This document shows positions 14,388 through 29,083 of a stretch of 64,000 nt of DNA, one piece after another. The notes under the pieces were generated by a model. It was not told where the DNA came from. It did not search any database and saw only the letters and a list, made by a program, of their open reading frames with translations. How positions within the stretch are numbered: position 1 is the first letter of the stretch; each line of letters opens with the position of its first letter. Both the position numbers and the translations under genes were made by a program. This DNA is from Geomonas silvestris (GTDB taxonomy: Bacteria; Desulfobacterota; Desulfuromonadia; Geobacterales; Geobacteraceae). The DNA lies in the NCBI RefSeq assembly GCF_014193515.1, contig NZ_BLXX01000012.1, positions 124,001-188,000 on the forward strand, in the 5' to 3' direction.

Positions 14388-14401
14388 GAGGTGTATGGCC
14401 T

Positions 14402-16009
14402 TCACATCTTCTTATAAAGCCCGCCGGCTAACTTTTCCAAATTGAACTTCTCCCTATCCCAGATCTTGTTTCCAGCTCTTTTAGGATTCTCCTGGTAGTA
14501 CCGATTCCGCTCCTCGAAATGCCTAGCCATAGCATCCTGCATCTCTCTAGCCGAGGCATAATTACTGTTGCAGATTACAGCCCGCTTCATGCCACAGAAA
14601 ACAGCTTCGATGACGTTCAAAAACTGCGAATTCGCAGGCAAAGGGACAATTTCAATAGTAGGGCTAGCCTGCTGATTATTATGGTTAGAAATCCAGGATC
14701 TTACCATTCTGGAGGAGTGCATTCCAAGGGCATCCCATGTCAGATAGATCTTAGAGCACATGCTATAATCCGCCGCGAGCTTTTCCAACAAAGAGACTAG
14801 TGCTTCGCTGCCTTTATTATCTGTGAATAGCCAGGTAATCTGGTTCGACAACGCTTCGAGAGCTGCAACAAATTGCACCTTTCCCCTAGATGTCTGATGT
14901 TCTGGGATTATGTCCGTTTCGTTTGGAGGGGTTAACTTCCTTCCGCCATACTTCTTCACCCTATAAGGCCCCACCTCATCTACAAAAAAAAACCGCTCCC
15001 CCGGCGAGAGTCCGTTTAATGTGTGGAGGACACGCTCCACTTTCGATTTATATCCTGGATCTGGGCTTGTTAACACCTTTCTGGCATGCTGCCAACTATA
15101 GCCTGTATGCTTGATTGTGGCCTGGACGATACCTTTTGAGATACCATCCCCATACTCACTCTTATAGGCCTCCGCGATCGTACCGTAGGTCCAACTGCTT
15201 CTATTAATTCCGTAAACAGATGGCATCTTGTGGAGAATGTCTATGACTCTCGTACTTCTCACCTCTCTGGCATCTATTCGAGCTTGGCTGAAGGGCTTAG
15301 TCAGGATGAAATCAAGGCGCTTAGCGTTGAAGTCTCGGTGCCATCTATAGATGGTTCGCTCAGCGGCGTTTGTCTCCAGGCCAACATCAAGCATGGTCCG
15401 GCCAGCGTCCATCATTAATATTGCAGTTGCTTTGGCACTATGTTTTTTATGATTTCTAGACCTATAAAGTTCCAGGCGATATTTTTCCTCTTTACTCAGG
15501 GGTGGAGTAAATTTGAGAGAACCTTTCTCCTCAGATAAGTCACAGAGCCTTTTGAATGCGTGAGCAAAAGAGGCTTTCACATCGGGTGCTATCAGTGGAC
15601 TTGCCGCGATTACCTTACCCAGCTCCCCCAAAGATGCTGAAGATCTTCCCGCAACTATATCAAGGGTAACGGATATTGTGTATTTATGACGTTTTTGTGC
15701 TTTCTGAGGCACCGAACTGGTGCCTTGACTCCTCTGGCCATACTTTGGAACCAACCCCTCAATTCCTCTCTCTTTGTATGCCCGTAGCCAATTGTAAAAA
15801 GTCCTCTGTGGAACGTTCTTTATGGCGCAGTATTTTTTAGTCGCCTTATGGACAGCGAAGTGACTTCCCTCGAGGTTAGCTTCGTGCTTGAGAAATATAT
15901 CCAAGTATTCTTTAAGGAGTAGAAAATGAGTCTCCGCACGTATCCTTTGAAAGTCTGGAAGATTTCTTATCTCCTCCATTTCAACGCAGTACCTGATTCT
16001 AGGATCCAT
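14402..16009 (-). mobile_element. IS630-superfamily DDE transposase gene (535 residues)
   Basis: The protein has an N-terminal helix-turn-helix (about 60-100, VPQRTFYNWLRAYKERGIEG), a second HTH (about 205-235, ERTIYRWHRDF) and an RNase H-like DDE catalytic domain. The catalytic residues are Asp344 (FFFVDEVGPYR), Asp426 (YLTWDALGMHS) and Glu468 (NVIEAVFCGMKR); the last spacing, 41 residues, is longer than the 34 usual for IS630. It transposes DNA by a cut-and-paste mechanism, with TA targets in this family. I could not find clear terminal inverted repeats. The ATG directly follows the T tract of the hairpin at 16011-16039, and no ribosome-binding site is visible. It looks intact. Confidence 0.85.
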
Positions 16010-16010
16010 A

Positions 16011-16039
16011 AAAAAAGCCTCCCTTGAATTAGCGGAGGC
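16011..16039 (-). terminator. Terminator at the end of the tape-measure transcript
   Basis: On the minus strand, GCCTCCGC, loop, GGGAGGC and then a run of seven T. It lies about 40 bases past the stop of the tape-measure gene. The T run continues directly into the ATG of the IS630 transposase gene at 16009. Confidence 0.8.
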
Positions 16040-16079
16040 ATTATAACGGCTTAGAGTGAATTTACAAAGGTCATTGTTC

Positions 16080-17882
16080 TCATGGCACCGTTGTCATTGC
16101 AGAGAAGAAGTCTCCGCGAGGGATCATGGTGATGCGCGTGTTTATGCTACTGGTGCGGCTATTTACTCTCCCTGCCGAATCAATCTGTAGATCGATGTGG
16201 ATGTCGTTTTTCTCCTCCTTTTTCCATGGGGCACGAAAAGACCAATTGTCGGGGTGCTGGTCTGCGTTGAACTCCCCGCTTCCGCCCGAAAGCTTATCTA
16301 GATATGAGCCGGTGTAATAAGCCGGAATGGTTGCCAGAGAGTAGATCCCCATCTTGTTGAGCCAAGGTAAGATCCTACCGGCCGTCTTTACGGTCTCCGC
16401 ATTTGCTGCGGGTCCAGGACCTGAAACGCCTAGATCGGAAAAGCTACCCGGCCAGTTGGTGACAAAAACGGGAGTTACCCCCGTAGCAGCCTCTACGGCC
16501 TTACCTTCCGCAAGCCCCACTCCGAGCGAAGCGAAAGAGGTTCCTCTCAGTCCCTTGAACACCTTACTGCCGAACTTTCCCGCCTTTACCAGGTTATATA
16601 GTCCGTATCCGCCTAGCACTCCGGAGATGCCGGCAAGACCATAAGAGGTGGTCTTGGCCAAGCTAGGGTGAGCCTCGTTGATCTCCCCGATCTTTGCGAC
16701 GATTTCGTTCAGGTCCTTCAGCACTTCCGTCATAGGTGCGAGCATCGGGTCGAAGATGGTAGCCAGCGTGGTTTTGGAGGTACCCCCCAGGGCGGTGACC
16801 GTAGCCGAGAAGCCCTTGAGCCGCTCAGTCATCTTGTCTTCGGCGCTAGCAACCTCGAGGACCTTACCCTTGACAAATTCCCAGGAACCAGTGCCCGTCG
16901 GCATGAGGTTGAGAGCAGCTAGACCACCCTGCTCACCAAAAATCTTTTGAAGAAGAGTCAACCTCATTTTCCTGTTGTAGCTACCAAGTGACGAACGGAG
17001 GCTTTTAATTATTTCATGAGTCGGTAAAAGCTCCCCCGACTTGTCCCAAAATTCTAACGGCGCCTTCCCTTTGCGCGCCAAATCACGATTCATAGCGGCC
17101 ATATAGCGTTTAGAAATACGGGTTGCACCGGTAAGTCTCTCATAGAAATCCTTGAGACCGACACCTGCATGAGAACCGAGCTGCCCCTGCTCGCCTAAAA
17201 CTGCAAGACCCGTCAGCATGTCCTTCCATGGTACCCCATAAGCATTGGTATAAGGCGCAGCATAGGGAAGCGCTGCTTCAAGCTGTGGCATCTTCATACG
17301 CCCGCTCATAACATGTTTCTGAATCTCGTCGGATAGCTCGCCGTAATCTTTTCCCTTAAGGTGATAGGGAACTCCGACGCCAAGCATGATGCCCGCTGTA
17401 GTTTCGGGAGCTGTCTTGGTGATGGTTGCAAGCACCATTGCGGCGCGCGCTGCGCCCTTACCTATTACGTCTTGGAACTCGACCCCCGAAGTCATCAATT
17501 CTCTTTGAGTATTCACTACGTCAACGGCAGAGAACGGAGTGATTTTTTGCAAGTCGACCGCGGTGGAGCGCACCTGCTGCAATTCCCTCCCAAGGGTGTT
17601 GGCGTCTTTGCCTGAGCGCAAAAGGCTCATTCGGACATCGATCATCGATTCCTGAAGGTCTGCGGCGGCCCCCACTCCCGGCTTCATCTTGTTGACGGTG
17701 TAGTTAGCGATGGCGAGGGCCTTAAGGCCCCGAGTAGCATGGCGCTCCATTAGCTCAAAGTTCCTAGCGGCTTCCTTGCCGGCAACTCCAAGTTGTTGAA
17801 TATTAGCTTTGGCACGCGAGGCAACCCCGGAGAGGAGATCTACCATAGTAAGCTGCATTGCTAAACGGAAAGTATCACCCAT
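16080..17882 (-). CDS. Phage tail tape-measure protein
   Basis: A 600-residue tape-measure protein of the TP901/PhageMin_Tail type. The conserved core spans about 70-330 (ITPFSAVDVVNTQRELMTSGV; LTGLAVLGEQGQLGSHAG is the typical Gly/Ala-rich turn; FGEQGGLAALNLM). Hydrophobic segments lie at about 410-450 and a polar C-terminus with beta character (NDIHIDLQIDSAGRV) closes the protein. In a phage this protein sets tail length and helps DNA entry. Here no tube, sheath, baseplate or head genes accompany it, which is unusual. AGAGGTGCAATA precedes the ATG. A terminator follows. Confidence 0.85.
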   Translation of the reverse strand: MGDTFRLAMQLTMVDLLSGVASRAKANIQQLGVAGKEAARNFELMERHATRGLKALAIANYTVNKMKPGVGAAADLQESMIDVRMSLLRSGKDANTLGRELQQVRSTAVDLQKITPFSAVDVVNTQRELMTSGVEFQDVIGKGAARAAMVLATITKTAPETTAGIMLGVGVPYHLKGKDYGELSDEIQKHVMSGRMKMPQLEAALPYAAPYTNAYGVPWKDMLTGLAVLGEQGQLGSHAGVGLKDFYERLTGATRISKRYMAAMNRDLARKGKAPLEFWDKSGELLPTHEIIKSLRSSLGSYNRKMRLTLLQKIFGEQGGLAALNLMPTGTGSWEFVKGKVLEVASAEDKMTERLKGFSATVTALGGTSKTTLATIFDPMLAPMTEVLKDLNEIVAKIGEINEAHPSLAKTTSYGLAGISGVLGGYGLYNLVKAGKFGSKVFKGLRGTSFASLGVGLAEGKAVEAATGVTPVFVTNWPGSFSDLGVSGPGPAANAETVKTAGRILPWLNKMGIYSLATIPAYYTGSYLDKLSGGSGEFNADQHPDNWSFRAPWKKEEKNDIHIDLQIDSAGRVNSRTSSINTRITMIPRGDFFSAMTTVP

Positions 17883-17892
17883 TATTGCACCT

Positions 17893-18279
17893 CTAAAAGT
17901 TTTCGGCCTTTTGACTCAGTGTTATTGACTGCGCCAGTTCAGATATAGGTTTTATGTAATCATCAGGAGTTATGATCCAGTGAAATTCGCACAGGATATC
18001 GTTATCTTGGGTGTAAAACCAGACATTAAAAAAGCTAAGGTCTTCAGTCGAATTGGCGTTCCACCCATAGATCCTAACAAAATTCCCATTGGCGACCGAG
18101 ATCTCAGCTAGGGAAACCAGATAGTCCAATACAGTGATTCCCGGATAGTAAGTTGACGCTTGCTGTACCTTTCTGATTGCTCTTCGCAATTCCGGTCTCG
18201 ACTCGGTTTTACCGGAAGGGTCATCTGCAAGACCATAATCTGCGGAAGTCTCGAAAAAATGCGTGCTTTTTTGCCCCAT
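17893..18279 (-). CDS. Unrecognised 128-residue protein of the Mu-like element
   Basis: The protein is soluble, with mixed helix and strand. Its first third is polar (ADDPSGKTESRPELRRAIRKVQQAS); the rest has aromatic-rich strands (NFVRIYGWNANSTEDLSFFNVWF, broken by polar turns). GGGAGAAAACT precedes the ATG. It ends 10 bases before the tape-measure start, so the two are co-transcribed. In tailed phages this position is normally held by a tail-assembly chaperone, but no similarity or frameshift site is visible, so that role is only positional. Confidence 0.6.
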   Translation of the reverse strand: MGQKSTHFFETSADYGLADDPSGKTESRPELRRAIRKVQQASTYYPGITVLDYLVSLAEISVANGNFVRIYGWNANSTEDLSFFNVWFYTQDNDILCEFHWIITPDDYIKPISELAQSITLSQKAENF

Positions 18280-18459
18280 AGTTTTCTCCCGTCATAATTG
18301 CAAGAGGGGGGCAGCGCGTAGCTGGGGACCTCTCGACACAATCCCAGGTGGATCATTGACCCGAACCGGTCACCACGAGCCCCTCCGAAGGAGAAGAAGG
18401 GCTGATTCATCGCCTATGACCCACCTACCTCGGCAATGAACCTGAAGCAGCTTGAACCG

Positions 18460-19467
18460 TTAGAGGTTCAAGCCAAGATCCTTTATGCGCTGTTCGATAT
18501 CAGCCAGAGCGGCCAAGGGGTTAAAGGAGGTTCTGGAAATCATCAGGCCCGTGCCTCTACCACTCTCCTGTCCAGCAAAAGCCTTTAAATCAAAGACGGG
18601 GACTTCGGGGCATCTCGGATAGAAGCCCAGCACCTTCTGACCCGGCGCAAGTTTGTTTATGAGGGCGTCCAGTCCCAGGAGCCTCATGTAACCTTCCTTG
18701 AGTTCCTGGCCAGCTTTGACGAATTCGGCGCCGGCGCTTTCCGCCTCGGCTTTGAGGAAGTGGAGCAGGAGAGCCTGTCCGGTCTGTTTCAGGTCGGTAA
18801 GCGTGGCTTTTTCGCTCTCTAGCTTAAGGCTGAGGCCTTTGATGCACTGGTCAGCGTCAGCAACCCTTTTGCTGCACAAGCTCCTGTCCATCTCCTGGAG
18901 CTGGATCTCTCTTTCGACCTCACCCAGCTGCTCCGCAACATCGATCCCCATGGCAGCGTCCGCAAGCAGACTTTCGCGGCGCTGGGAAATCTCCTCCAGG
19001 TTGGGGCCGGAATTCTGCGATATCATCTGGCTCTGCTCCTGAATGGCCTTTTCGAGTGCATTGACCCTGATTGTGGAGGAAGCGACCATCATCTGATGGT
19101 CTTTTACTTCTGCAAGACTTGCTGAGAAGGTAAAGGCGTTGAGTCTGGTCTGAAGGTCGGAAAGCTCTGCACGTAGACGGCCCTCCAACTCTGCGGCCGA
19201 CATCGCTGCCGCAGAGGACTCCTGAAGATTTTCCTTCAAAGCCTTGAGATCCTCACCGTCCCTCCCCGTGATGTCCTGCTCTATGCCGCCCCTACGATGA
19301 ATGAAGCTCTCCAGCCGAGTGCGAGCATCAGCCGCCTTGATCTTCAGGGCCTGCACGTCCCCCACCTGGTTGAGCTCCTGGGTTATTGCTGCGATCCGTT
19401 GTCTCATCGCCTGTTCGCTAGCAATCCTCTCCAAGGCCGATCCTTGCTCTTTTTCCGATTTCTTCAT
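18460..19467 (-). CDS. Long coiled-coil protein of the Mu-like element
   Basis: A 335-residue protein, almost entirely heptad-patterned helix from about 10 to 235 (many Glu/Lys/Leu/Gln; for example LNQVGDVQALKIKAADAR and ALEKAIQEQSQMISQNS), then a compact C-terminal part with VLGFYPRCPEVPVFDLKAF. There is no signal peptide or membrane segment. AAGGAG lies five bases before the ATG. Not recognised; its position between an I-protein-like fragment and the tail genes fits a structural or scaffold role, which is inference only. 18280-18459, between it and the next gene, shows nothing convincing. Confidence 0.65.
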   Translation of the reverse strand: MKKSEKEQGSALERIASEQAMRQRIAAITQELNQVGDVQALKIKAADARTRLESFIHRRGGIEQDITGRDGEDLKALKENLQESSAAAMSAAELEGRLRAELSDLQTRLNAFTFSASLAEVKDHQMMVASSTIRVNALEKAIQEQSQMISQNSGPNLEEISQRRESLLADAAMGIDVAEQLGEVEREIQLQEMDRSLCSKRVADADQCIKGLSLKLESEKATLTDLKQTGQALLLHFLKAEAESAGAEFVKAGQELKEGYMRLLGLDALINKLAPGQKVLGFYPRCPEVPVFDLKAFAGQESGRGTGLMISRTSFNPLAALADIEQRIKDLGLNL

Positions 19468-19514
19468 TTTGTCTCCTTTGTTTGATGAGCCCTTTGGCTA
19501 AACCTTCAGCGATT

Positions 19515-19841
19515 TTACAGTCGCCCCGAGGGGAGCGGCAGCGCCTCCATGAATACCTTTTCCGTGATGCCGAGGTCCTTGCACACTCCCTTTTGATGAG
19601 GCAGCAGTGTTTCGATCATGGCGGCTGCAACGGGATCGCTCTGCGCCTCAGAGGACATTGCCTGCATGAATTCCAGTTCGGTGAGGCCAAGGATCTCACA
19701 CACTTGCCTTTGGACTTCGGTAAAAGAATCTTGACCCTCCGCATTCCGGGCTACCTTGACACCGCCTGTCCGTGCGTCCTCCATTCGCTCCAGAGTTACT
19801 CCTAAATTTTGCATAACTACAACTTCCACTGATGTGAGCAT
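19515..19841 (-). CDS. Small phage protein resembling the C-terminal part of Mu-like I (protease/scaffold) proteins
   Basis: 108 residues. Two related helical motifs, RQVCEILGLTELEFMQA and KGVCKDLGITEKVFMEAL, resemble the repeated element at the C-terminus of Mu-like prophage I proteins, which act as capsid protease and scaffold. The protease part is missing, so this is a fragment or a free-standing version. GGAGGTGG six bases before the ATG argues that it is translated as it stands. It lies downstream of the Mor-like activator, where Mu late genes begin. Confidence 0.55.
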   Translation of the reverse strand: MLTSVEVVVMQNLGVTLERMEDARTGGVKVARNAEGQDSFTEVQRQVCEILGLTELEFMQAMSSEAQSDPVAAAMIETLLPHQKGVCKDLGITEKVFMEALPLPSGRL

Positions 19842-19865
19842 TAATTTCCACCTCCATCTAGCTAT

Positions 19866-20618
19866 TTATGTCTTTAATGTTTGTGTTACTCGCCTCTTAG
19901 CTTCTTCCCTCCGCTGCTCCCTTACTTTCTTAAGGATGTCGTAAATTTGCCTCGGTGTGATGTTATGCTTTGCTGCCAGTTCCCTATGAGATGCACCATT
20001 CTTGAACGATGTGTAAATTTCTGCATTTCTCTCTAATATTGTGTTACCTATCATCGTAGGAATGTAAATATTAGAAATGCCCGCCCAACAATGGGCCAAG
20101 TGCTTGTATATTTTAGTTCCGATGACCATAGCCAGTTGCTGATGCACCCCGTAACGGCAAAGACCTTCTATGACCTCGGTTTCTATGTCTTCAAGAAATT
20201 CTTGGCCAAAGGCCCGATGTTTTTCGTTTCCTGAAGGTGAGTTGGTAGTAGAGCTTACTCTCCTCTGAGAATCCAATCGAATCTGCTCTCTGGTTTTATG
20301 AAGGATTTTACCTATATCCAATACGGACAGGCCATGTTTACATGCAAGGTTTTGGCAACTCCTCCCGTTTTTATACTCTGCGTAAATGTCTATATTTCTC
20401 AGATTATTTTTTTTGCTCAGTTTTTTAGGGATGTAAATAGCCATGCCACCCCATTGGTGCATCAAATGTTCCGAGACTCCTTCTACTATAGCTATCGCTG
20501 ATTCCTTCTTAATACCTTCAAGACAGAGTAGTCGCGCAATTTGAAATTTCAGATCCGTCAAGAACGCTTCCCCGACAGCTCCTTGCTTAGCACGTCCGTT
20601 AAACCTTTCAGTTGCCAT
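19866..20618 (-). CDS. Mor/C-type transcription activator with two fused Mor domains
   Basis: A 250-residue protein made of two copies of a Mor-like domain. The first copy (about 20-120) ends with NIDIYAEYKNGRSCQNLACK, HGLSVLDIGKILHKTREQ. The second (about 140-245) ends with NAEIYTSFKNGASHRELAAK, HNITPRQIYDILKKVREQ. In Mu, Mor is a dimer of about 129 residues that recruits RNA polymerase to the middle promoter. Here dimerisation seems to have been hard-wired into one chain. Both DNA-binding helix-turn-helix units look intact. GAGGGAATA precedes the ATG. It would activate the genes downstream (19841 to 16080). Confidence 0.8.
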   Translation of the reverse strand: MATERFNGRAKQGAVGEAFLTDLKFQIARLLCLEGIKKESAIAIVEGVSEHLMHQWGGMAIYIPKKLSKKNNLRNIDIYAEYKNGRSCQNLACKHGLSVLDIGKILHKTREQIRLDSQRRVSSTTNSPSGNEKHRAFGQEFLEDIETEVIEGLCRYGVHQQLAMVIGTKIYKHLAHCWAGISNIYIPTMIGNTILERNAEIYTSFKNGASHRELAAKHNITPRQIYDILKKVREQRREEAKRRVTQTLKT

Positions 20619-20678
20619 TATTCCCTCGCTTTTTGCCCAATCTGACGATCCCCGCCGATGTAGTCCTACGATCCTGCT

Positions 20679-21269
20679 CTACTTATTTATTCGGTTCCAT
20701 GAGTACCCCGGCGAGGTGCGCCAACTGCAAGAAAAACAGCGATATACCTCCTCGTCCCTCTGATCAAACTGACGCTCCGGCGCGTGGATCATATACCCTC
20801 CGCATTTTCGGCAACGTCCGATGTAAACGGCGACTTTTCTTGGTTTATGGGCATTTAAGCACTTGGTAAAGCTTTGCGAAAGAGGGGCAGATATAGGCTG
20901 AGACTCCTGAAATTCAGGAAACAGAACTGACAGCAGGTCGTCAAGTTCGTCTTCATCAATGAGGCTGTCACCTAGGTCGTCACTATGATAACCAGCTTGC
21001 GTTTGCGAGTAATTGCTATCCTCGTGTTGGAGTTGGTCCAAAGCAAAGATCTCTTCCAGGGTCTGTTGTAAGGAACGAGTAAGAGCAACCTCTATTGGCT
21101 GTGCCTGATCATGCAGGCCGTTACAACCTTTGCAGCGCAGATCACCAGTGCTGGACTCGGAACGCAGGCGATTGACCTCGCAGTTTTTGGCTGTGATCCA
21201 CAAGCACAAGCGGTTGCAGTAGGATGTGTTCAGCCTGATCCATTCATCGGCATTGAGGGCCATGTGCAT
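20679..21269 (-). CDS. Zinc-finger-like protein of the Mu-like element, function unknown
   Basis: A 196-residue protein with two Cys clusters. The N-terminal one is CNRLCLWITAKNC ... CKGC (about 18-49), the C-terminal one is CRKCGGYM ... CFSC (about 153-181), a likely zinc ribbon. The middle is acidic (DDLGDSLIDEDELDDLLSVL). Not recognised. GGAG lies eight bases before the ATG, and only two bases separate it from the preceding gene, so the pair is translationally coupled. A DNA- or RNA-binding regulator is plausible. Confidence 0.6.
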   Translation of the reverse strand: MHMALNADEWIRLNTSYCNRLCLWITAKNCEVNRLRSESSTGDLRCKGCNGLHDQAQPIEVALTRSLQQTLEEIFALDQLQHEDSNYSQTQAGYHSDDLGDSLIDEDELDDLLSVLFPEFQESQPISAPLSQSFTKCLNAHKPRKVAVYIGRCRKCGGYMIHAPERQFDQRDEEVYRCFSCSWRTSPGYSWNRINK

Positions 21270-21271
21270 CT

Positions 21272-21777: not shown

Positions 21778-22008
21778 CTACCCGGGCAGGGTATTTAAAT
21801 AGACCTCAACCTTTTCCAGGTGCTGAGGGATGGCGGCGAGCTGTTTATTTGCAAGTTCCATGAGTCCCCACCAGTCAACGTCTACTGCATACGATGACTT
21901 GTCAGCTTGAATCTCGGCTGCAAGTTCCATGACCTGGAACAGTGCCTTGATATTACTGAGTTCTCGCTGGCCGATACTCAGTTCTTTTTCTGCTTCTACC
22001 TTTCTCAT
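21778..22008 (-). CDS. Unrecognised 76-residue helical protein of the Mu-like element
   Basis: A small helical protein (KELSIGQRELSNIKALFQVM; WWGLMELANKQLAAIPQHLE). Its ATG shares one base with the TAA stop of the upstream gene, so it is translationally coupled. No family was recognised. Confidence 0.55.
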   Translation of the reverse strand: MRKVEAEKELSIGQRELSNIKALFQVMELAAEIQADKSSYAVDVDWWGLMELANKQLAAIPQHLEKVEVYLNTLPG

Positions 22009-22397
22009 TACTCCCCCTCAGATTTCAGACAAGACTCGCAATGTCTTTTGAAGTAGCTACGCAAGGTGTTTTCCGATGGAACTCGTTTGGCCCCAAACTC
22101 TTCTATCAATTTTTCATGTATTTCTTTGATAGTCAGGAGCTGACCCAAGTCATTGATAAAAGCCCTTAGCTTCAGGTCTCTATCAATTTTCAGCATTCGA
22201 CCACCCTTGCGCGGCAGGAAATTGATATTGCCTGAGTGGATTGCCCCTTGAAACTCAGTTGCAGAACGCTGGGATACAAGATCCAAGGCCGCGCAAAGAA
22301 TTCGAATCCCATCAGCTGCGGTTAAGCCGATCAGGCCACTTACTATTGTCCCCGCATGGGCTTGTATTTCCGTACTGGACAACTTCTTGTTTCGCAT
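22008..22397 (-). CDS. HTH-like protein next to the transposition ATPase
   Basis: 129 residues. The C-terminal half reads as a helix-turn-helix or small winged domain (LTIKEIHEKLIEEFG, then VPSENTLRSYFKRH), with basic residues. The N-terminal half is hydrophobic helix (VSGLIGLTAADGIRILCAAL). It lies 10 bases downstream of the MuB-like gene in the early operon. A DNA-binding accessory role is inferred; no named family is recognised. Confidence 0.55.
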   Translation of the reverse strand: MRNKKLSSTEIQAHAGTIVSGLIGLTAADGIRILCAALDLVSQRSATEFQGAIHSGNINFLPRKGGRMLKIDRDLKLRAFINDLGQLLTIKEIHEKLIEEFGAKRVPSENTLRSYFKRHCESCLKSEGE

Positions 22398-22407
22398 GTT
22401 TTGCCCC

Positions 22408-23259
22408 TTAAATCGCTTCGATAATCTCGGCTGTAACCCGCGGCTCGCCCATCTCTTGGGCTAGGTTCAACGCCCTTGCCGTATAATTATTGACGTGCAG
22501 CGGGTAGGCGTGGGAGACCTTTGTCTTTCCGTCGCGTGCCGTGCTTGTGAGCCTCCGGTCCAGAGCCTTGAACGCTTCTTCATCGAAGATATCCTCTATC
22601 CTTACCCCCACACGCTTGAACTTTGTGGCGAGATAGTCCCGCAGATTCCCGTTGAGGCTTCCCATCTCCACGACTTGGACACGGCGAATCACTTCGCGCA
22701 TGTTGACATGTCGCGCTTCATCAAACTTCTCCTTCAACTCAGGCTGACCAATCAGGATAATCCCAAGCAGTTTCTTGTAGCCATCCTCGAGCTCATAAAA
22801 TCGCTTAAGGTGTTTCAGTGTCGGGATGGTTAAGTCGTGGGCTTCCTCCAGGATCAAGCAAGAGCGGTAGTTGTTTTTCGTCCGGTCCAGCAGCAGCCTT
22901 TGCACCTGTCTGGATTTATCTTCCGGACTCCCTTTAGGTTGTTCGGAAGAGATATCCCTTATGATGGCTTGGCAAAGAGAGGCGACACTTACCTTAGACT
23001 TGTCGATCATCTGGGGATAGATAACCAGGGTGGTGCCGTCCCGCTTAAGCTGCTCTATCACCTTCCGCCTCATGACGCTTTTCCCGCTACCAACCTCCCC
23101 GACAACGGCCAGGAACCCGCTGTGATTGGCGGCGTCCAGCATAGCCGCCTGGACGTAGCGCGCTTCGTCGCTCATGTAGACATCAGCATCCTTTTGAATA
23201 TCGTCGATGAATGGATCGCGGAACAGCTTGAACTGTTTCTTAGCATCTGTTGAAATCAT
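22408..23259 (-). CDS. ExeA/MuB-like AAA+ ATPase (transposition helper)
   Basis: A 283-residue AAA+ ATPase of the ExeA/GspA-like type found beside Mu-like transposases. It opens with FKLFRDPFIDDIQKDADVYM, followed by Walker A GEVGSGKS (about 56-63), Walker B CLILEEAHD (about 134-142), sensor-1-like ILIGQPEL and an arginine-rich NMREVIRRVQVVEM. The family selects target DNA and delivers it to the transposase, using ATP-controlled filaments or rings. Unlike phage Mu B it has no N-terminal HTH domain. GGAGGTAGAG precedes the ATG. It lies 44 bases downstream of the transposase gene in the same transcript. Confidence 0.85.
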   Translation of the reverse strand: MISTDAKKQFKLFRDPFIDDIQKDADVYMSDEARYVQAAMLDAANHSGFLAVVGEVGSGKSVMRRKVIEQLKRDGTTLVIYPQMIDKSKVSVASLCQAIIRDISSEQPKGSPEDKSRQVQRLLLDRTKNNYRSCLILEEAHDLTIPTLKHLKRFYELEDGYKKLLGIILIGQPELKEKFDEARHVNMREVIRRVQVVEMGSLNGNLRDYLATKFKRVGVRIEDIFDEEAFKALDRRLTSTARDGKTKVSHAYPLHVNNYTARALNLAQEMGEPRVTAEIIEAI

Positions 23260-23302
23260 CTCTACCTCCCCACTTAGTGAAATATTTTCCCAAAATCGTG
23301 AC

Positions 23303-24988
23303 TTACCGTGATTGGGCTGCTGTTACTGGCGTCCGCCACTCTTTTCCCGCTGAGAGGAGCGCCACCACCTCATCTGCACGCGCCGCTTCGATGGTCGCTC
23401 CGAATTCCGCACGCAGAGACTGGTTTAGGTCCCTCGTCACTTGCACGTCGGCAGCACGAAGACGTTTAAATAACTCCATAATTGGCAGTTGCTGCGGCAC
23501 TATGGCGCGATCCAGTTCTATCGGTTGCCCTTTTCTGGGGAAGATGGCAAGGTTGTCCACCTTGTCAGCAAACCCCTCGAAGGCATTCAGCCCATAGAAA
23601 GGGGTCTCCTTTTTCCGATCCGGGTCCGTATTGCCGTAGGCCAACGAGTCCATTCGTTTATTTGCCTTCTGGGTTGCCGTTTCCGGCTGTGCTTTATATT
23701 CCTGCCCGATAATGGCCGCATTCACGGAAAATCCACCCAGCTCTGCCGGCAATTTTTCTATAGCCCGTGCCTCGAAACGGCTGTTTTCATAAGCCAATGT
23801 CACTATCCCTTCACGCCATTTAAAGAGATTTTTGATAACCATCACCTTGGCACCATTGGGTATCCCAAAGCTCCGAAGGTTAAACTCTTTATTCTGGAAG
23901 GATATCCGGCCATTTGAAACGGTCCGCTCTTCTTCGGGCTTATTGAGGAGGTCCCGCAATTCCTCACGCGAAGGGAGTTCGCGGAGTTGCTCATTTTGGA
24001 TGCTCAGCCACATCGAGAGCCGAGTGAACCCATGACGGCTGTGTTTTTTAGTTGCGTTGTACCAGAGACAGAATCCGAAGGCCTTGCGGTTGAGATCCTC
24101 CAAGGAACTTGATGGATCGATCCTCAGCCTTGTTTCGAACCACTCCTCCCAGATGTTGTGCGTTACCTCTACCGATCCTTGCCGACGCGAGTTCCCGGTC
24201 TTCCCCGGCAGGATCAGCACGTTGATACCTTCCCAAAAGGGGAGCCCTAGTGCCTTGGCCTTGGCTCGGCAGCCGCCATCCATCAGCATCATTATCGGTA
24301 CCCCCCGGAAAGGGAAACGCCCATCAATCTTCACTTCCCACGCTGAGCAGACGAAATCGAACAGGTTCTCGGCTGTTTCTCCATCTGCCAGGTAGTATTT
24401 GACAAAGAAGAATCCAGAGAAATGGTCGGTGATAACGTATCGCTGCAACGGCGTCTTGATTTTCTTGAAGTTTTCAAGTTTATTTTTATAAAATTCATCT
24501 TCTCGCATTATTGAAATGCCATTGTCTGATAAGTAGTACTGAATACAGGTCGAAACGTCAGCGCTATGAACATGGTTCGGATACAAGCTTCTCATCTCGG
24601 TGTGCGGTGTGGCGCTGTTCTGGCAATTCGTACTCATCTGTTTTTCCCGTAGGTTCCTTTGAACCGTGCCCAGTGAAACCGCTCCTCGATTGATAAAGCC
24701 ATTGTCAATTGCGAATTCCAGCGCGTTCTCCACCGGGGAGATAACCCCCTTGTTCTCTCGCCTGGTTTGTCGGAGGAATGATCCCACCACTTCAAGCTGA
24801 TCATCAGCCAGTATCCGCTTGCCTTTGTCTGCTCGCACCTTGCGGCCGCTAGTGAACCCAAATTCGCGTGCTATCCGCATTGTATGCCCGTAAGAAAGGC
24901 CCCTTGGAAGTCGGAATTTGTCGACGATTTCCCGACGCTCTCCCGGTTTTGCTTCCTGTAATTCAAAAACCATGTCCCTTTGCCACAT
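23303..24988 (-). CDS. Mu-type DDE transposase (integrase core)
   Basis: A 561-residue transposase. An N-terminal DNA-binding part (about 20-120, GLSYGHTMRIAREFGFTSGR) is followed by an rve/RNase H core with Asp144 (HSADVSTC), Asp237 (MMLMDGG) and Glu274 (GSVEVTHNIWEEW), then a beta-barrel-like segment (about 390-430) and a charged tail, the same order as in MuA. It should carry out replicative transposition with the ExeA/MuB-like ATPase encoded downstream. I start at the ATG with GAGGGcaaa just upstream; a TTG 36 bases earlier is possible. It is somewhat shorter than MuA (663). Confidence 0.87.
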   Translation of the reverse strand: MWQRDMVFELQEAKPGERREIVDKFRLPRGLSYGHTMRIAREFGFTSGRKVRADKGKRILADDQLEVVGSFLRQTRRENKGVISPVENALEFAIDNGFINRGAVSLGTVQRNLREKQMSTNCQNSATPHTEMRSLYPNHVHSADVSTCIQYYLSDNGISIMREDEFYKNKLENFKKIKTPLQRYVITDHFSGFFFVKYYLADGETAENLFDFVCSAWEVKIDGRFPFRGVPIMMLMDGGCRAKAKALGLPFWEGINVLILPGKTGNSRRQGSVEVTHNIWEEWFETRLRIDPSSSLEDLNRKAFGFCLWYNATKKHSRHGFTRLSMWLSIQNEQLRELPSREELRDLLNKPEEERTVSNGRISFQNKEFNLRSFGIPNGAKVMVIKNLFKWREGIVTLAYENSRFEARAIEKLPAELGGFSVNAAIIGQEYKAQPETATQKANKRMDSLAYGNTDPDRKKETPFYGLNAFEGFADKVDNLAIFPRKGQPIELDRAIVPQQLPIMELFKRLRAADVQVTRDLNQSLRAEFGATIEAARADEVVALLSAGKEWRTPVTAAQSR

Positions 24989-25054
24989 TTTGCCCTCACT
25001 AACGGAGAATTCACTGCTTCTCAACCCTCAATTAGGAGGGATGCTCGAAGTCGC

Positions 25055-25975
25055 TTACACCTTTTGCGCTTCCTCCCACCTTTCATACTCCTCCAACAGC
25101 TCAGGATTTATGACCGGATCGCCTATCTCTGTTACCACGGTGTCGTAGAGTGCGAGCGTCTGCATTTTCAAATTGTGCACTGTAGAAATTACGGCAGCGC
25201 GCATGCGCGGTGTAAGGTCTACAGGTAACTCATTATGCAGTTCGTTCGGTTCCAGCGCGATCAGCGCCCCCTGGATCAGCACTCGGTATGCCTCGACCCG
25301 CTTTATGAAATTGTCCTCGTCAGGGGTGAGCCCCTTGGAGACCGCTTGAGTCTCAATCTTGATTTCCAGTGCGGCTATTTCCCTTTCCTGGTCACATATC
25401 TTTTTCTGCTTAATCTCCAGGAGCCTATTGGCGGCCGCTTTCGATTTTGCCGCCTCATCCTTGGCCTGCTTGTTTTCGACCACCACTTGTTCAATGAGGT
25501 CTTTGATCTCCTCACGGGAGGCTGATTCTAGGTTGATCACTTTGCCTTCCTTAATTTCCAGACGCTTTTCTTCGGGAAGCGATGCGTACCCGAGGAGATC
25601 CCGGCGGGTGAAGCCGAGAAGTGCAAGAAGTTGCACTTCATCGGGCTCCAGATTTCGAGCAATCTTCAGATCATTGAAGCCCGTCCGGCGCTTGATGCCC
25701 TGCTGCTCAAAATAGTCATCAATGCTCTTAACCCCAGGGATTTTCAGGTAGTTCTTGCTATCTATCAATTGCGCGAGCTGTTTCATTTCCATGAATTCAG
25801 CGAGCAACTGCATTGATCTGAAAGCTTGTATGCGGCCCACTTTTAGTGCACACTCGTGCACTCCTTGAAGGCTCTCTTTCATCTTTTCCATCTCTTGGTC
25901 CGCATCTGCCCGAGCCACACTATAAATTTCATCGACGGCCTGAACTTCCGCCGGCGCTCCCAGTTTCCGCGTCAT
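25055..25975 (-). CDS. Accessory protein of the Mu-like element with coiled coil
   Basis: 306 residues. The N-terminal half is helical, with SIDDYFEQQGIKRRTGFNDLK (read in two parts) and LLALLGFTRRDLLGYASLPEE. The middle, about 165-210, is a coiled coil (QVVVENKQAKDEAAKSKAAA). The C-terminal part is helical. It looks like a DNA-associated accessory protein similar to those preceding transposase genes in Mu-like elements, but I cannot name it. GAGGAG precedes the ATG, whose A is the last base of the upstream stop. Confidence 0.55.
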   Translation of the reverse strand: MTRKLGAPAEVQAVDEIYSVARADADQEMEKMKESLQGVHECALKVGRIQAFRSMQLLAEFMEMKQLAQLIDSKNYLKIPGVKSIDDYFEQQGIKRRTGFNDLKIARNLEPDEVQLLALLGFTRRDLLGYASLPEEKRLEIKEGKVINLESASREEIKDLIEQVVVENKQAKDEAAKSKAAANRLLEIKQKKICDQEREIAALEIKIETQAVSKGLTPDEDNFIKRVEAYRVLIQGALIALEPNELHNELPVDLTPRMRAAVISTVHNLKMQTLALYDTVVTEIGDPVINPELLEEYERWEEAQKV

Positions 25976-26280
25976 TAGTTACTCCTCGTGATGGATATAG
26001 ACTCCAAATCCTGTCGTTTCCTGGCTATCTCACCTTCCAGGTTGCTCTTCACCCTCGCCCAGAAGATGGCCAGTTTCATCCCTAGCCGGTAGGCTCCGCC
26101 AACCTGCTGAACAAAGCCTGCTTCTTCCAAGGTAACCAGGTGGCACATGACAGTACCCAAAGCGATATCTACGGCCCTCCCGATCTCCGGCCCCGTGGCC
26201 AGTTCCTTCTGGGTGGCGAGGAACTCCAGGATTTGAATTGCCTTTGACACTGCTTCAATGCGCCTATACGTCGTTTTCAT
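25975..26280 (-). CDS. IclR-like winged-helix DNA-binding protein
   Basis: A 101-residue protein that is essentially an IclR-type N-terminal winged helix: AVSKAIQILEFLATQKE, ATGPEIGRAVDIALGTVMCH (recognition helix region), LEEAGFVQQVGGAYRLGMKL (wing). The ligand-binding domain of IclR proteins is absent. It probably regulates the element or helps its transposition. GGGGGAC precedes the ATG, and it overlaps the following gene by one base. Confidence 0.75.
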   Translation of the reverse strand: MKTTYRRIEAVSKAIQILEFLATQKELATGPEIGRAVDIALGTVMCHLVTLEEAGFVQQVGGAYRLGMKLAIFWARVKSNLEGEIARKRQDLESISITRSN

Positions 26281-26292
26281 CTATTGTCCCCC

Positions 26293-26526
26293 TTAGGTTC
26301 TCAACCGCTCGCACATCCGGTCATAGCGCTCACCCGCTTGGTCACAGAGCTGGGCGAGTTCAGCCAAGGTCACATCTCCAATGACTTTGCCCATCTCAGC
26401 TACCTCTTGTGCCAACATGTAGAAGGCTGGGCCATTCCATCCTAAGGCGTTCGCGCAGGGCTGTAAGGCTTCGATGATCTCAGACTCCAGCGCCTCAATG
26501 TCCACTCCAGCTTTTTTACCGTCCAT
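26293..26526 (-). CDS. Unrecognised 77-residue protein of the Mu-like element
   Basis: Small, acidic, helical protein (VDIEALESEIIEALQPCANA; VTLAELAQLCDQAGERYDRM). I start at the ATG that has GAGGAAA six bases upstream; a GTG 15 bases earlier overlaps that site. It is followed 12 bases downstream by the winged-helix gene in the same early operon. No family assigned. Confidence 0.55.
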   Translation of the reverse strand: MDGKKAGVDIEALESEIIEALQPCANALGWNGPAFYMLAQEVAEMGKVIGDVTLAELAQLCDQAGERYDRMCERLRT

Positions 26527-26602
26527 TGTCACTTTCCTCACCTAGGTTCACTTGTCGTAGCTTACTTATGCGGGCCAGCAATAGCAGCTCCGAGAAACTG
26601 AC

Positions 26603-27040
26603 CTATTTCAGCCCGCGTTTCTGTCTGATGCAAAGAATCTTCGTTTGGATTATCCGTTCCTGTTCTTGGAGCCGAGCCAGTTCGATCAGATCCCGATCTT
26701 CAGGGTTGAGAATGTCGCTGCCCAACGGTTCTAGGAGGTAGCGGAACGGCTCGAAGGTTCCTGTTACGAGGCAAAACGCTGCCAGCGTTTCGGCCTTGAT
26801 GCAGTAGTCAGGGTTTGAGCTCGTGTACTTGTCCAGCATTTCCTTGCTGATGGTTGACCGGGTCAGCCGGCTTATCTCGCTGGAGATCCTGTAGCGATCC
26901 AGGCCGCTTTCGCTGATTGCCCGCGACAAGCATTGGCGGAGCCCTAAGCCAATATCCAATGCCCCTTCCGCCATACCGGTATCAAATAGCCCTTGCTGAC
27001 CTGACAGCCCCTTATCCTTTCCTGTAATTCTTTTGGACAT
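26603..27040 (-). CDS. Probable early regulatory protein of the Mu-like element
   Basis: 145 residues. The centre reads LRQCLSRAISESGLDRYRIS, followed by SEISRLTRSTISKEMLDKYT, an HTH-like arrangement in which a scanning helix is paired with SKEMLDKYTSS. The pattern is common in small proteins just downstream of the ner position in Mu-like prophages. The N-terminus (SKRITGKDKGLSGQQGLFD) is disordered and basic. AAGGAG precedes the ATG by six bases. The function is inferred from position. Confidence 0.55.
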   Translation of the reverse strand: MSKRITGKDKGLSGQQGLFDTGMAEGALDIGLGLRQCLSRAISESGLDRYRISSEISRLTRSTISKEMLDKYTSSNPDYCIKAETLAAFCLVTGTFEPFRYLLEPLGSDILNPEDRDLIELARLQEQERIIQTKILCIRQKRGLK

Positions 27041-27095
27041 TTACGGCTCCTTTTTCGGCTGTTACAATCAAACAAAATTTGATAAAGTACGAACC

Positions 27096-27323
27096 TCAGG
27101 CCGCCTTACGTTTGCGAGTATCAGGCTTGTTAGGCCAGAGTTCCTCTATGGAGACGCCCAGTGCCCTAGCAACAAAGATTCGAAGACGCGGAGACTTTCC
27201 GCGGCCAGCTATTACATGGTTGATAGCGCTTCGATCTACCCCTGCCATCCGAGCGATATCGGACTGGGATACATCTGCATCTACCAGCAACTTCTTTATT
27301 TTTTTGGTCGTCTTCGTCAACAT
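27096..27323 (-). CDS. Cro/Ner-like HTH regulator
   Basis: A 75-residue XRE-type helix-turn-helix protein: VSQSDIARMAGVDRSAINHV forms the DNA-reading unit, followed by GRGKSPRLRIFVARALGVSI, EELWPN and a basic tail. It is the first gene of the leftward (early) transcript and is divergent from the repressor, the place of ner in Mu or cro in lambda. It should repress the repressor gene or the early promoter. A good promoter (TTGACA, 17 bp, TATTTT) places the likely transcription start at or within a few bases of the ATG, so the message may be leaderless. Confidence 0.8.
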   Translation of the reverse strand: MLTKTTKKIKKLLVDADVSQSDIARMAGVDRSAINHVIAGRGKSPRLRIFVARALGVSIEELWPNKPDTRKRKAA

Positions 27324-27358
27324 GTTGACAAAATATCGGCATACGGATGTTTTGTCAA
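27316..27358. promoter_or_regulatory. Divergent operator/promoter region of the Mu-like element
   Basis: Two overlapping inverted repeats are visible: a perfect 14-bp palindrome GTCAACATGTTGAC (27316-27329), which contains the start codon of the Cro/Ner-like gene, and a 9-bp inverted repeat TTGACAAAA / TTTTGTCAA (27325-27333 and 27350-27358). On the minus strand, the second arm gives the -35 box TTGACA (27358-27353) and, after 17 bp, the -10 box TATTTT (27335-27330). Repressor and Cro-like protein probably both bind here. Confidence 0.7.
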
Positions 27359-27388
27359 GATTATTATCGTTATGGGGATATTTAATTT

Positions 27389-28219
27389 ATGATTGGAAGC
27401 CGAATCGCAGATTACAGAAGAGGGTTAAAGTTCAAAGTCGCTGAATTTGCGCGAATTATCGGGATATCGCAAGGGTCTTTGTCGGATATTGAAAACAACA
27501 AGACCAAGCCATCAGCCGATACCATCGAGGCTATTGTTCGGAATACGGATATAAATCCTGGGTGGCTATTGACCGGAGTAGGGCCAAAGAGGACGGGCGA
27601 TTATAGGACAGGGGATGGCAGACCTTTCTCTTCTTCCAAAGACACGGATCAAGGGGAAATAGATCATGATGTAATGTGGAATGTCGTCAATGTGATACAG
27701 CGGATATTAGCAGGGCTGGGGATTGACTCGAAGGTCTTCTCTCAAGATAAACGTATAATTATTCAAAACCTTCTTTACGCTGACTCAAAGCAAAAATCAG
27801 GGCAAGTTGACGAAGTATATGCTGCCCTTTTAGGGCGGCTCACGCTTTGCGAAGTATGTGAAATAAAGAATTTAAAGTTAAGATGGCAAGAAAAATGGAG
27901 AGTCTGGCCAGGAGTCGGCCAGGATCTAGACGACGTTATCATTTCGGTAGAGGCCCCTCCAGGCCTAAAATGCCCTATGGAAGGGAAGCCAAGAGAATAT
28001 ATTACCGATAGGTTTCCGGTAACGGTCTACTGCACCGACTACTATCGTAGACTGATCGACGATGGTTCATTGATTCTGGTTGAAGGAGAACCAGGGGGCA
28101 ACCCGGCCCCAAAAACGCCTGTAAAACAGGGTGCTCAGGTGACACAGACGGTTAGCGGTACAGGTCATAGTGTGGCTGGTCGTGATATCGTTGGGGGAAG
28201 CGGGAGGACGAAGAAGTAG
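27389..28219 (+). CDS. Repressor of the Mu-like element (XRE HTH)
   Basis: A 276-residue protein with an N-terminal XRE helix-turn-helix (about 1-65: FKVAEFARIIGISQGSLSDI, ENNKTKPSADTIEAIVRNTD). The middle part (about 95-245) matches no family I know. It is not a LexA/S24 peptidase, because no Ser-Lys dyad motif is visible, so classical RecA-driven self-cleavage is not expected. The tail ends QTVSGTGHSVAGRDIVGG, and nearly the same segment opens the next protein. It is divergent from the Cro/Ner-like gene across a palindromic operator. The Shine-Dalgarno is weak (GGGGA about 12 bases upstream). Confidence 0.8.
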   Translation: MIGSRIADYRRGLKFKVAEFARIIGISQGSLSDIENNKTKPSADTIEAIVRNTDINPGWLLTGVGPKRTGDYRTGDGRPFSSSKDTDQGEIDHDVMWNVVNVIQRILAGLGIDSKVFSQDKRIIIQNLLYADSKQKSGQVDEVYAALLGRLTLCEVCEIKNLKLRWQEKWRVWPGVGQDLDDVIISVEAPPGLKCPMEGKPREYITDRFPVTVYCTDYYRRLIDDGSLILVEGEPGGNPAPKTPVKQGAQVTQTVSGTGHSVAGRDIVGGSGRTKK

Positions 28220-28675
28220 ATGACCGATTTAAATGGTAGCCATAACAGCGTTAACCAGGCTGTTTCAGGTGAGAATAACCAAGTTGCGGGCCGAGATATC
28301 ATTATTCATATCAAGGACGATCAAGGCGAAAAGCCATTTCCGTATAACCCTAACTTAATCGCCTGCCCAGCATGCGAAAAGCAAGGTATATATCGCGGCG
28401 CAGACACATGTCCTCGCTGCCAGTACAGCTTCTCAAAAGAACGATTGAGAGTTCTAGCTGAGCAGCGGCAAAGGCGCGAGCAGGGCCTTCAACTGCTAGT
28501 GCTCTTGGGGGCTGGGGTGCTTGCTGGTGCGACTCTCATCTCCCAGGTATTCCATTGTGGTGTCCTAAAGAGCCTTGGCGGCGGAGTTATCATTGTTATG
28601 GTGATTGATTGGGGAGGTCTTTTCCTGTGGGTGAGTGTCGTAGCTGCATTGAAGAGGCGACAGGGTAAGATTTAG
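28220..28675 (+). CDS. Membrane protein with AGRDI tail and zinc ribbon, partner of the repressor
   Basis: 151 residues. The N-terminus carries SVNQAVSGENNQVAGRDIII, almost the same as the repressor C-terminus. A zinc ribbon follows (CPACEKQGIYRG ... CPRC, about 51-69), then a basic helix (KERLRVLAEQRQRREQ), and two membrane segments (LLVLLGAGVLAGATLI and GGVIIVMVIDWGGLFLWVSV). The ATG follows the repressor TAG with no gap, so the two are translated together. It may tether or sense for the repressor. No named family was recognised for the whole protein. Confidence 0.7.
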   Translation: MTDLNGSHNSVNQAVSGENNQVAGRDIIIHIKDDQGEKPFPYNPNLIACPACEKQGIYRGADTCPRCQYSFSKERLRVLAEQRQRREQGLQLLVLLGAGVLAGATLISQVFHCGVLKSLGGGVIIVMVIDWGGLFLWVSVVAALKRRQGKI

Positions 28676-29083
28676 GCTCGGATCGGCCCGGGTACGGCAA
28701 TAATTCAATCTTTCAAGTTTCATTTGAAAACCACCTTTTTTACAAGCGATCACCAAGTTATCTACAACCACCTACAAGACCACTTATAGCATTTCTCACT
28801 ACTTACTTTATGTCATCGTCCGTCAAACAGAGTTGGTTGATGCGTGACTCTTCAGTCAGGCCAAGGAGATATTTTGAAGAAACTGTTGTTGGTTGCGCTG
28901 CTGGCGCTGAGCTAAAATCAGCAATCTTCCACTAAACTAGCTGGCGGCTCTCCAGCTCTGCCGACTGATCAGTCGCAAACAGACCCCCCTCCCCTCCTTT
29001 CCGGTTCCTGGTGACAGCGGACTGCGGCCGTCCTATAATGGCGGCCGCAGCACCCGACTTCACCCGCCCACCGGAGGCACTTC
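28676..29083. other. Left-end region of the Mu-like element and host junction
   Basis: About 400 bases, AT-rich to about 28830, that should contain the left end of the element, since in the Mu gene order the repressor lies next to that end. Repeated motifs ACAAG and CCACC occur (28733-28790), possible transposase-binding sites. I could not fix the exact end or a target duplication. Host-like, GC-rich sequence resumes by about 28940. Confidence 0.45.
28874..28915 (+). pseudogene. Remnant: signal-peptide start of a lost exported protein
   Basis: AAGGAG, five bases, then a TTG-initiated frame encoding MKKLLLVALLALS and a stop. This is a typical secretion signal core with a proper ribosome-binding site but no protein behind it, as left by a deletion or insertion at the element border. 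It could be chance. Confidence 0.35.

Follow-up and report, generated by a model that had tools for sequence, protein, structure and literature searches.

The window, a stretch of 64,000 nucleotides from Geomonas silvestris, contains a 14.5 kb Mu-like element from which nearly all virus-particle genes are gone, and which carries a second, unrelated transposase gene at its end. At the left side, an HTH repressor (27389–28219; PF12844, E 8e-14; C-terminal stretch matching phrog_208, E 1e-8) and zn151 (28220–28675; 44% identical in the G106 element) are encoded on the forward strand. All the genes that follow lie on the reverse strand, beginning with a Ner/Cro-like repressor (27096–27323; PF01381, E 1e-8; phrog_1468, E 4e-9), the phage transcriptional regulator g145 (26603–27040; phrog_2345, E 3e-24) and the accessory early genes g306, an IclR-type HTH gene and g82 (25055–26541). 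These are followed by a B3-type Mu transposase, TnpA (23303–25024; phrog_310, E 8e-56; the start is possibly an ATG 12 codons in), and a MuB-type transposition ATPase (22408–23259; phrog_296, E 6e-51; PF13401). Two small ORFs of 76 and 129 aa (21778–22397; phrog_16319, E 5e-5, for the latter) are succeeded by g107 (107 aa; 21272–21595) and a zinc-ribbon-like protein gene (196 aa; 20679–21269), both with tblastn matches in compact relatives, and by a tandem Mor-family activator of 250 aa (19866–20618; PF08765, E 7e-38, two matched stretches).

Downstream of Mor are genes for a 108-aa protein (19515–19841), a coiled-coil protein of 335 aa (18460–19467) with 27% identical stretches in the G072 and G106 elements, an orphan ORF of 128 aa without a significant family match (17893–18279) and a full-length tail tape measure protein of 600 aa (16080–17882; PF10145, E 7e-23; phrog_28, E 3e-29; relatives of equal length). 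The last gene, just inside the probable right end, encodes an intact DDE_3/IS630-type transposase of 535 aa (14402–16009; PF13358, E 5e-11; NF033545, E 4e-47; alignments A1 and A2). Comparison with a defence-system library gave weak matches for the coiled-coil protein, HTH-only matches for the repressor and no match for DDE_3.

In a scan of the 19 ORFs with Pfam and PHROGs, the tape measure was the sole virion family with a significant match, and no ORF significantly matched a terminase, portal, capsid, sheath or lysis family. The full virion and lysis gene set expected of a transposable phage of the Mu/B3 type was not found, a trait shared with satellites; repressor/Ner, TnpA, MuB and Mor are all present, in the Mu order expected of such a phage. 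All 19 reading frames are open, 16 have a Shine–Dalgarno match of at least four bases (compared with 30% of random sites), and the coding fraction is 92%. The G+C content is 45–54% within the element and mostly 55–70% outside. The original prediction of a reduced Mu-like element, ordered as repressor, Cro-Ner, accessory genes, transposase, MuB ATPase and Mor, and devoid of capsid, portal, terminase, sheath and lysis genes, is borne out by gene order (phrog_310, phrog_296 and PF08765 matches) and by the virion-gene scan, and its view that open frames with ribosome-binding sites do not reflect random decay is supported. It had counted only four genes after Mor, thereby omitting the DDE_3 gene, a fifth, which is common to all relatives. 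The 108-aa protein that it called an I-like fragment may correspond to the C-terminus of a Mu I protease, on a PF10123 match that falls below the cut-off (E 0.022). A terminator proposed after these genes was not upheld, since terminator-like sites in the element show no excess over shuffled sequences (16 compared with 15.8).

The best ends of the element, at 14288 and 28825 rather than the predicted 14402 and 28870, come from a TG/CA-constrained search and are provisional. They are bounded by a putative 6-bp target-site duplication, AACAGA (14282–14287 and 28826–28831). The putative right terminus (14288–14401, reverse strand) reads outward ..CGCGCATCA, resembling the ends ..CGCGCTACA and ..CGCGTTACA of relatives, and the putative left terminus (28676–28825) reads inward TGACGGACG..; a second left-end candidate at 28977 carries the same hexamer. 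An equal-length match bounded by TG/CA (6 bp in the window) also arises in 7.5% of 200 shuffles of the window end regions, and in 18.5, 74.5 and 4% of shuffles for G041, G127 and G075, respectively. Because shuffles match so often, the duplication in G127 rests on an interrupted gene and that in G106 on the assembly. Duplication length varies among elements (5, 6 or 7 bp, with 9 also permitted in G075), and the right end of the G106 element reads ..TTTA, not CA. The left and right termini resemble each other no better than 100 shuffles in the window, and just above shuffles in G075, G127 and G041. The window copy is single within its genome, and no clean empty site was found for it; a sister genome, G036, has both flanks with other genes between them.

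Residues 194–502 of the DDE_3 protein are classed by NCBIfam as an IS630 transposase, and D344-D426-E468, which we take from the IS630 pattern to be the catalytic residues, are intact in the window and invariant in all seven full-length copies. These copies are mutually 44–75% identical. Across the 21 pairs, pN is 0.138–0.38 and pS 0.755–0.891, indicating strong purifying selection on the gene. The terminal inverted repeats typical of IS630 were not found at the window copy: of the three repeat pairs of at least 12 bp in 14250–16120, none spans the gene. The structure model is poor (mean pLDDT 58, pTM 0.24), and a profile search of solved structures gave a single weak match, SopB (E 0.014). 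Kinship of the N-terminus to Mu transposase was considered from a phrog_310 match (E 3e-7) yet rejected, as profile comparison with a B3-type TnpA alignment gave a probability of 1.8%. DDE_3 was absent from the phage collection searched. Plasmid records matching it numbered 1458, none covering 80% of DDE_3 at any one place, and the 10 of these among the matches listed are all annotated as IS630.

A first contig scan with DDE_3 alone returned no relatives; with alignment A1 it yielded four DDE_3 loci. The DDE_3 clade comprises seven distinct full-length copies and three fragments, found in nine of 141 genomes of the order Geobacterales (six full-length copies and the fragments) and in one IMG/VR record, L078 (the seventh full-length copy). 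Weaker matches occur in 11 genomes beyond the clade, and catalytic-half relatives, 36–44% identical, in G328, G357 and G386, where no further genes of the element lie close by; four of the 45 genomes with a match in the wider search were inspected singly. One such element, in Geomonas propionica Red259 (L074), has a DDE_3 of 67% identity. Six of the seven full-length genes belong to compact elements that combine a repressor, a Mu-type TnpA–MuB pair and a tandem Mor with DDE_3 last in the operon, whereas the seventh, G075, is a 3.9 kb internal-deletion derivative in which the g148 frame runs into the C-terminus of the hub gene. The compact elements span 11–14.5 kb; the L078 record breaks off inside the repressor gene, at the left end. 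The elements were gathered by DDE_3, so that its presence in all seven is by construction. Its orientation, and where it stands with respect to the rest of the element genes, are also identical in all seven. Mor is tandem, with two stretches, in each of the six elements that have it (window, G072, G106, G041, L078 and G127), and tblastn (1e-3) matched the zinc-ribbon gene in six of the seven and g107 in five. The window element shows all the traits of the proposed family (DDE_3 last, a tandem Mor and the zinc-ribbon gene, with neither terminase nor portal recognised). No unassigned ORF in the seven elements exceeds 340 aa, which leaves none with the length of a terminase or portal gene.

Differing phage genes occupy the slot ahead of the last gene: the tape measure in the window, gpG and a GpP-like hub in L078, and part of an I protease in G106. 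The statement that the element keeps one tail gene therefore does not hold as worded, since the constant gene of the family is DDE_3, not the tape measure. Full-length relatives of the tape measure occur elsewhere in the order, five at 51–62% identity and one (G004) at 46%, and two contigs (G043:C15 and G066:C32) hold both such a relative and a Mu-type portal. On the contigs examined, the tape measure loci either carry a different type of transposase or are unmatched by the TnpA queries, and tblastn with DDE_3 and the zinc-ribbon gene gave no match.

The transposase arm, of which there are three types, is common to compact elements and head-gene phages. The window TnpA is 48–73% identical to TnpA at six phage-like loci, each with a terminase or portal, and matches at 25–30% in eight further genomes. 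One right arm recurs beside all three types. At eight phage-like loci with head genes, tblastn (1e-3) matched neither the zinc-ribbon gene nor g107 of this arm, and the DDE_3 clade is missing from the whole genomes concerned. The finding named originally as pointing to a simple decayed prophage was that of full-length relatives whose head and tail genes lie exactly in the corresponding gap, together with deletion scars in the window; no colinear complete phage was found. The recurrence of the compact gene set at other loci, which the original prediction had proposed to look for, is seen: six of the seven full-length loci, the window's among them, follow one plan. The element appears to represent a distinct lineage, not a rotting prophage.

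Relatives of this plan occupy unrelated places. The G127 element interrupts a serine-recombinase gene, its recombinase domains confirmed, with GGAGA on both sides; seven uninterrupted homologues match across the join, five of them without length difference, and DDE_3 lies between the two copies of the duplication. In G106, a metagenome-assembled genome, an identical 141-bp right end is present on two contigs with different flanks, which could be strain variation within the metagenome bin, and ends set by an assembly break show a 6-bp duplication, ACTTGA. Mobility of the relatives argues against a domesticated transposon, one of two suggestions made originally; the other was a satellite, and by sequence the two cannot be told apart.

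If these were ordinary decayed prophages, that is, independent Mu-like remnants immobile after losing their virion genes, the differing slot genes, the G127 TnpA split into two ORFs (360 and 416 aa), the deletion and gene fusion in G075 and the 22 codons of DDE_3 left in G114 would be readily understood. Simple decay of the family is nevertheless unlikely, given the same right arm beside three transposase types and unmatched at the phage-like loci, the interrupted recombinase, the two flanks of the G106 end and the selection on DDE_3; the open frames of the window, most with ribosome-binding sites, also speak against it. Still less credible is that DDE_3 is just an independent insertion sequence whose insertion fell close to the right end, possibly because of a hot spot there. 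The NCBIfam assignment and the catalytic-half relatives standing apart from element genes would suit such an origin, but it was rejected on the shared place and orientation at seven loci, the enclosure of DDE_3 by the G127 duplication and the absence of flanking repeats in the window. The divergence among DDE_3 copies implies an old association with the element.

Mobilization as a phage satellite, within the virions of a Mu-like helper that the kept tape measure, hub, gpG and protease part would help to divert, is a minority possibility that is compatible with the explanation preferred below. The elements have a typical satellite size and miss head genes, the order contains Mu-like phages that have either a related TnpA/MuB or a tape measure of this family, and the kept phage genes are full-length in the window and L078. 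Against this, no capsid-remodelling gene was recognised and the kept gene changes from element to element; a Mu-type portal, present in 21 of the 141 genomes, occurs in none of the nine carriers, which counts for little as 1.3 would be expected by chance.

Among known systems, B3 and Mu transposable phages share the order of repressor, Ner, TnpA, MuB, GemA (found in relatives) and Mor. The window TnpA is 31–34% identical over 84–89% of its length to those of B3, PM105 and Ps60, and 58 phage records match, all below 60%. Those phages are about 35–40 kb and carry the virion and lysis genes unrecognised here, whereas the tandem Mor and right-end DDE_3 belong to the compact elements. Laboratory mini-Mu, with Mu ends and transposition genes and no virion genes, is similar in that respect, but the Geomonas element is natural, retains a repressor and a Mor gene of its own and has an additional transposase. 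Satellites of phages (P4-like, PICI, PLE and PICMI) are likewise small, phage-derived and without structural genes, but use an integrase at attachment sites rather than a Mu-type transposase at unrelated sites; helper dependence here is putative. IS630/Tc1-mariner elements share the DDE_3 catalytic domain with D, D and E; the protein here, of 535 aa, has an additional N-terminal portion, and its gene lacks flanking inverted repeats in the window and lies downstream of Mu-type genes in the seven full-length loci examined. Tn7 offers an analogy, two different strand-cutting enzymes within one element, although there the second enzyme is TnsA, which does not belong to the DDE_3 proteins. Neither a description of such elements nor a natural mini-Mu was among the literature matches listed.

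The best explanation, to which we assign a probability of about 0.7, is that of a 'mini-Mu' occurring in nature: a transposable element of Mu/B3 type, compact and virion-less, whose lineage recurs in Geobacterales. When repression fails, TnpA and MuB would relocate the intact unit or make a copy of it, and Mor would then activate the downstream genes, with DDE_3 standing where a phage has its virion operon. Transfer from cell to cell would rely on something else, most simply occasional headful packaging of the element and neighbouring DNA by a Mu-like phage whose transposition system matches, or else riding on other mobile DNA. Laboratory mini-Mu is packed in this way, by the headful, together with adjoining DNA. 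DDE_3 may be kept for its use to the element, most probably in end handling or excision. A bolder and improbable extension is a system of two transposases: DDE_3, under the control of Mor, would be a late module replacing the virion genes and would cut second strands or excise copies after TnpA/MuB transposition. Phage-type replicative transposition would then lead to release of free element DNA, and the former phage would be an autonomous transposon, swapping Mu, B3 or Tni-like arms while keeping the DDE_3 arm.

The natural 'mini-Mu' would be a recurring counterpart of the laboratory construct: a phage lineage without particles, still mobile, with a second, unrelated transposase as its last gene. 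With the DDE_3 arm constant and the transposase arm swapped, the family shows exchange of transposition modules. If helper phages pack the elements by the headful, neighbouring chromosomal DNA would also be moved among metal-reducing bacteria. The family would provide a testable case of the transition from phage to transposon, or from phage to satellite.

The window element comprises 19 genes, of which those for the repressor and zn151 lie on the plus strand and the other 17 on the minus strand. It is 92% coding and has a lower G+C content than the surrounding DNA. When all 19 proteins were scanned with Pfam and PHROGs, the Mu-like gene plan of the original prediction was borne out: HTH repressor, Ner-like repressor, phage regulator (g145), IclR-type HTH protein, g306, B3-type transposase (TnpA), MuB ATPase, small genes, a zinc-ribbon-like protein, Mor (one 250-aa protein with two matched stretches), a weak I-like C-terminus, a coiled coil, an orphan and a tape measure. 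The predicted list ended there, but a further gene (14402–16009) encodes a 535-aa protein, DDE_3, residues 194–502 of which are an IS630 transposase according to NCBIfam (E 4e-47).

The C-terminal part of the repressor (27389–28219), about residues 184–249, matches phrog_208 and also, in phage-like contigs of G015, G043 and G066, short stretches that lie 1–3 kb upstream of the tape measure gene; the repressor of L078, an IMG/VR record, aligns with it over the full length (54%). The window repressor appears to carry a fused virion-region domain. Short NNxQIAGxN-like motifs were seen by eye in the repressor tail and in zn151, and again in a zn151-like protein and an adjoining 224-aa protein next to the repressor of G106 (L037:12081–13180).

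The anatomy is conserved, and compact elements of this plan recur at other Geobacterales loci, a comparison that had been proposed. The B3-type TnpA matched 17 of 141 genomes of the order. Nine loci besides that of the window were fetched (identity at least 31%), six of which (G053C35, G021C8, G053C31, G003C68, G087C17 and G061C112) are phage-like, each having a terminase or portal within the part that was fetched, which did not always extend to the ends of the locus. The loci of G072 and G106 are compact, their final gene being DDE_3 (50% identical), and that of G131, read over 8 kb, may be of either kind. A profile made from DDE_3 (A1) matched 20 of the 141 genomes, nine of them with a member of the clade of the window protein and the other 11 with weaker hits (E 8e-11 to 7e-4). 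In the clade, the gene is full-length in the window's genome (G000), G041, G072, G075, G106 and G127, is broken off at contig ends in G085 and G090, and survives in G114 as a solo remnant of its last 22 codons (L106:16016–16081), which suggests an old, lost copy. Among IMG/VR records, L073 is identical to the window and L078 is one further relative. In a phylum sample of 395 genomes, 45 matched DDE_3; beyond the window's genome just three exceeded 36% identity (36–44%, in the catalytic half), with no match to other element genes nearby. DDE_3 had no match in the phage collection, and the literature searched yielded, among the matches listed, no description of Mu-like elements that lack virion genes and carry a second transposase. 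Across seven DDE_3 genes (21 pairwise comparisons), pN was 0.138–0.38 and pS 0.755–0.891, the latter saturated, so that no pN/pS ratio is given; the putative catalytic D, D and E are the same in all seven.

ORFs of at least 240 aa were listed for all seven compact elements (window, G072, G106, G041, G127, L078 and G075). No unassigned ORF was as large as a terminase or portal usually is, which leaves no room for such head genes. Those above 340 aa were TnpA (or halves of it), MuB, DDE_3, the window tape measure, the L078 hub and an I/coiled-coil fusion in G106; small head or tail genes may have been missed in the relatives, because family scans there covered selected proteins only.

The phage genes kept in the slot between Mor and DDE_3 differ between elements: an orphan and the tape measure in the window, a gpG-like protein (PF05069) and a GpP-like hub (PF21683) in L078, and the N-terminal part of an I protease (PF10123) fused to a coiled coil in G106. 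As worded, the idea that the element keeps one tail gene is not supported: the slots of relatives hold other phage genes, and the constant gene is DDE_3 rather than the tape measure. Full-length relatives of the tape measure occur in G015, G066, G067, G043 and G135 (51–62% identical), with another in G004 (46%); a Mu portal lies on the same contigs as those of G043 and G066. The 3.9 kb G075 element (L101:10098–14033) has both probable ends and retains DDE_3, a repressor, Ner and a g148 frame that continues into the C-terminus of the hub. This deletion derivative is possibly a non-autonomous form.

Insertion as a unit is seen in relatives. The G127 element (11.2 kb) starts with TGTAGG, ends with ..GGTTACA and has GGAGA on both sides. 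Such a 5-bp match, looked for as a target duplication, is uninformative by itself (74.5% of shuffles give one), but here the element interrupts a gene, each flank holding one half of a serine-recombinase gene. The peptide obtained by joining the flanks had matches at E 1e-20 in 10 of the 141 genomes. Seven span the join, five without length difference (G004, G125, G027, G056 and G123) and two with one extra residue (G011 and G005); the rest are G127 itself, in two pieces, and G140 and G070, in part only. The G004 homologue contains Resolvase and Recombinase domains. In G106, the first 141 bp of the element contig recur unchanged at the ends of contigs C155 and C84, the flanks of which differ; the left side runs on into C130, and C84 and C130 carry ACTTGA directly at the ends, a 6-bp duplication. 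An identical end at two insertion sites points to recent movement, although G106 is a metagenome bin and two strains are another possible source of the double flank.

The right end ..CGCG(C/T)TACA is common to G075, G041, G090, L078 and G085. In the window, AACAGA at 14282–14287 and 28826–28831 delimits a candidate element at 14288–28825; these ends are preferred to an alternative left end at 28977, which the same hexamer also precedes. The 12.2 kb G041 element has a candidate 7-bp duplication (GTTACCT; 18.5% of shuffles do likewise) and G075 has CAGAGTT, or 9 bp if the start lies two bases on (a 7-bp match arises in 4% of shuffles). From the DDE_3 stop to the right end there are 114 bp in the window, 58 in G127, 94 in G075, 84 in L078 and 815 in G041, where the gap contains an opposite-strand ORF of 146 aa. 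Short dispersed repeats at 13600–13645 and 13743–13773 have many copies genus-wide (up to 36 matches per genome), and outside the element 31134–31532 is repetitive coding on both strands, with arrays such as NRELRRV/RRNSRFT, and looks like a minisatellite. In the sister genome G036 (L146, G036:C3:181000–186500), the same flanking genes enclose, in place of the element, other genes totalling about 2.1 kb that by eye look lipoprotein-like.

Window proteins were compared by tblastn at 1e-3 with the seven compact elements and eight phage-like loci. DDE_3 was found in 7/7 and 0/8, respectively, and TnpA and MuB in six of the eight phage-like loci (46–74%). The DDE_3 and TnpA results are partly by construction, since the compact set was picked by DDE_3 and six of the phage-like loci by TnpA. 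The zinc-ribbon protein was matched in 6/7 and 0/8, g107 in 5/7 and 0/8, and Mor in 4/7 and 1/8. Pfam, applied to compact elements only, gives two Mor matches in one protein in all six that have Mor. The seven whole genomes holding the phage-like loci contain no DDE_3 clade member. Cysteine-rich ORFs of G043 and G066 resemble, by eye, remote relatives of the zinc-ribbon protein, so the DDE_3 arm is distinct but not free of phage kin. The transposases of the compact elements are of three types: B3-type in the window, G072, L078 and (at 31%) G106; MuA-type with PF02914, partnered by Phage-MuB_C, in G041; and Mu-transpos_C with a TniB-like ATPase in G127, split into two ORFs and present also in phage G043 (37% and 31%). 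The closest DDE_3 to that of the window (67%) is in G041, paired with another transposase type. Thus the DDE_3 arm stays while the transposase arm is exchanged, and the two arms have different histories.

By analogy with Mu, TnpA and MuB would move the element, and Mor would activate the genes after it, those of the slot and DDE_3. A first guess is that DDE_3 acts in end handling or excision. A Mu-type portal is encoded in 21 of the 141 genomes and in none of the nine carriers, a weak contrast with about 1.3 expected. The element is unable to build a particle, and its spread would therefore need a helper or other vehicle.
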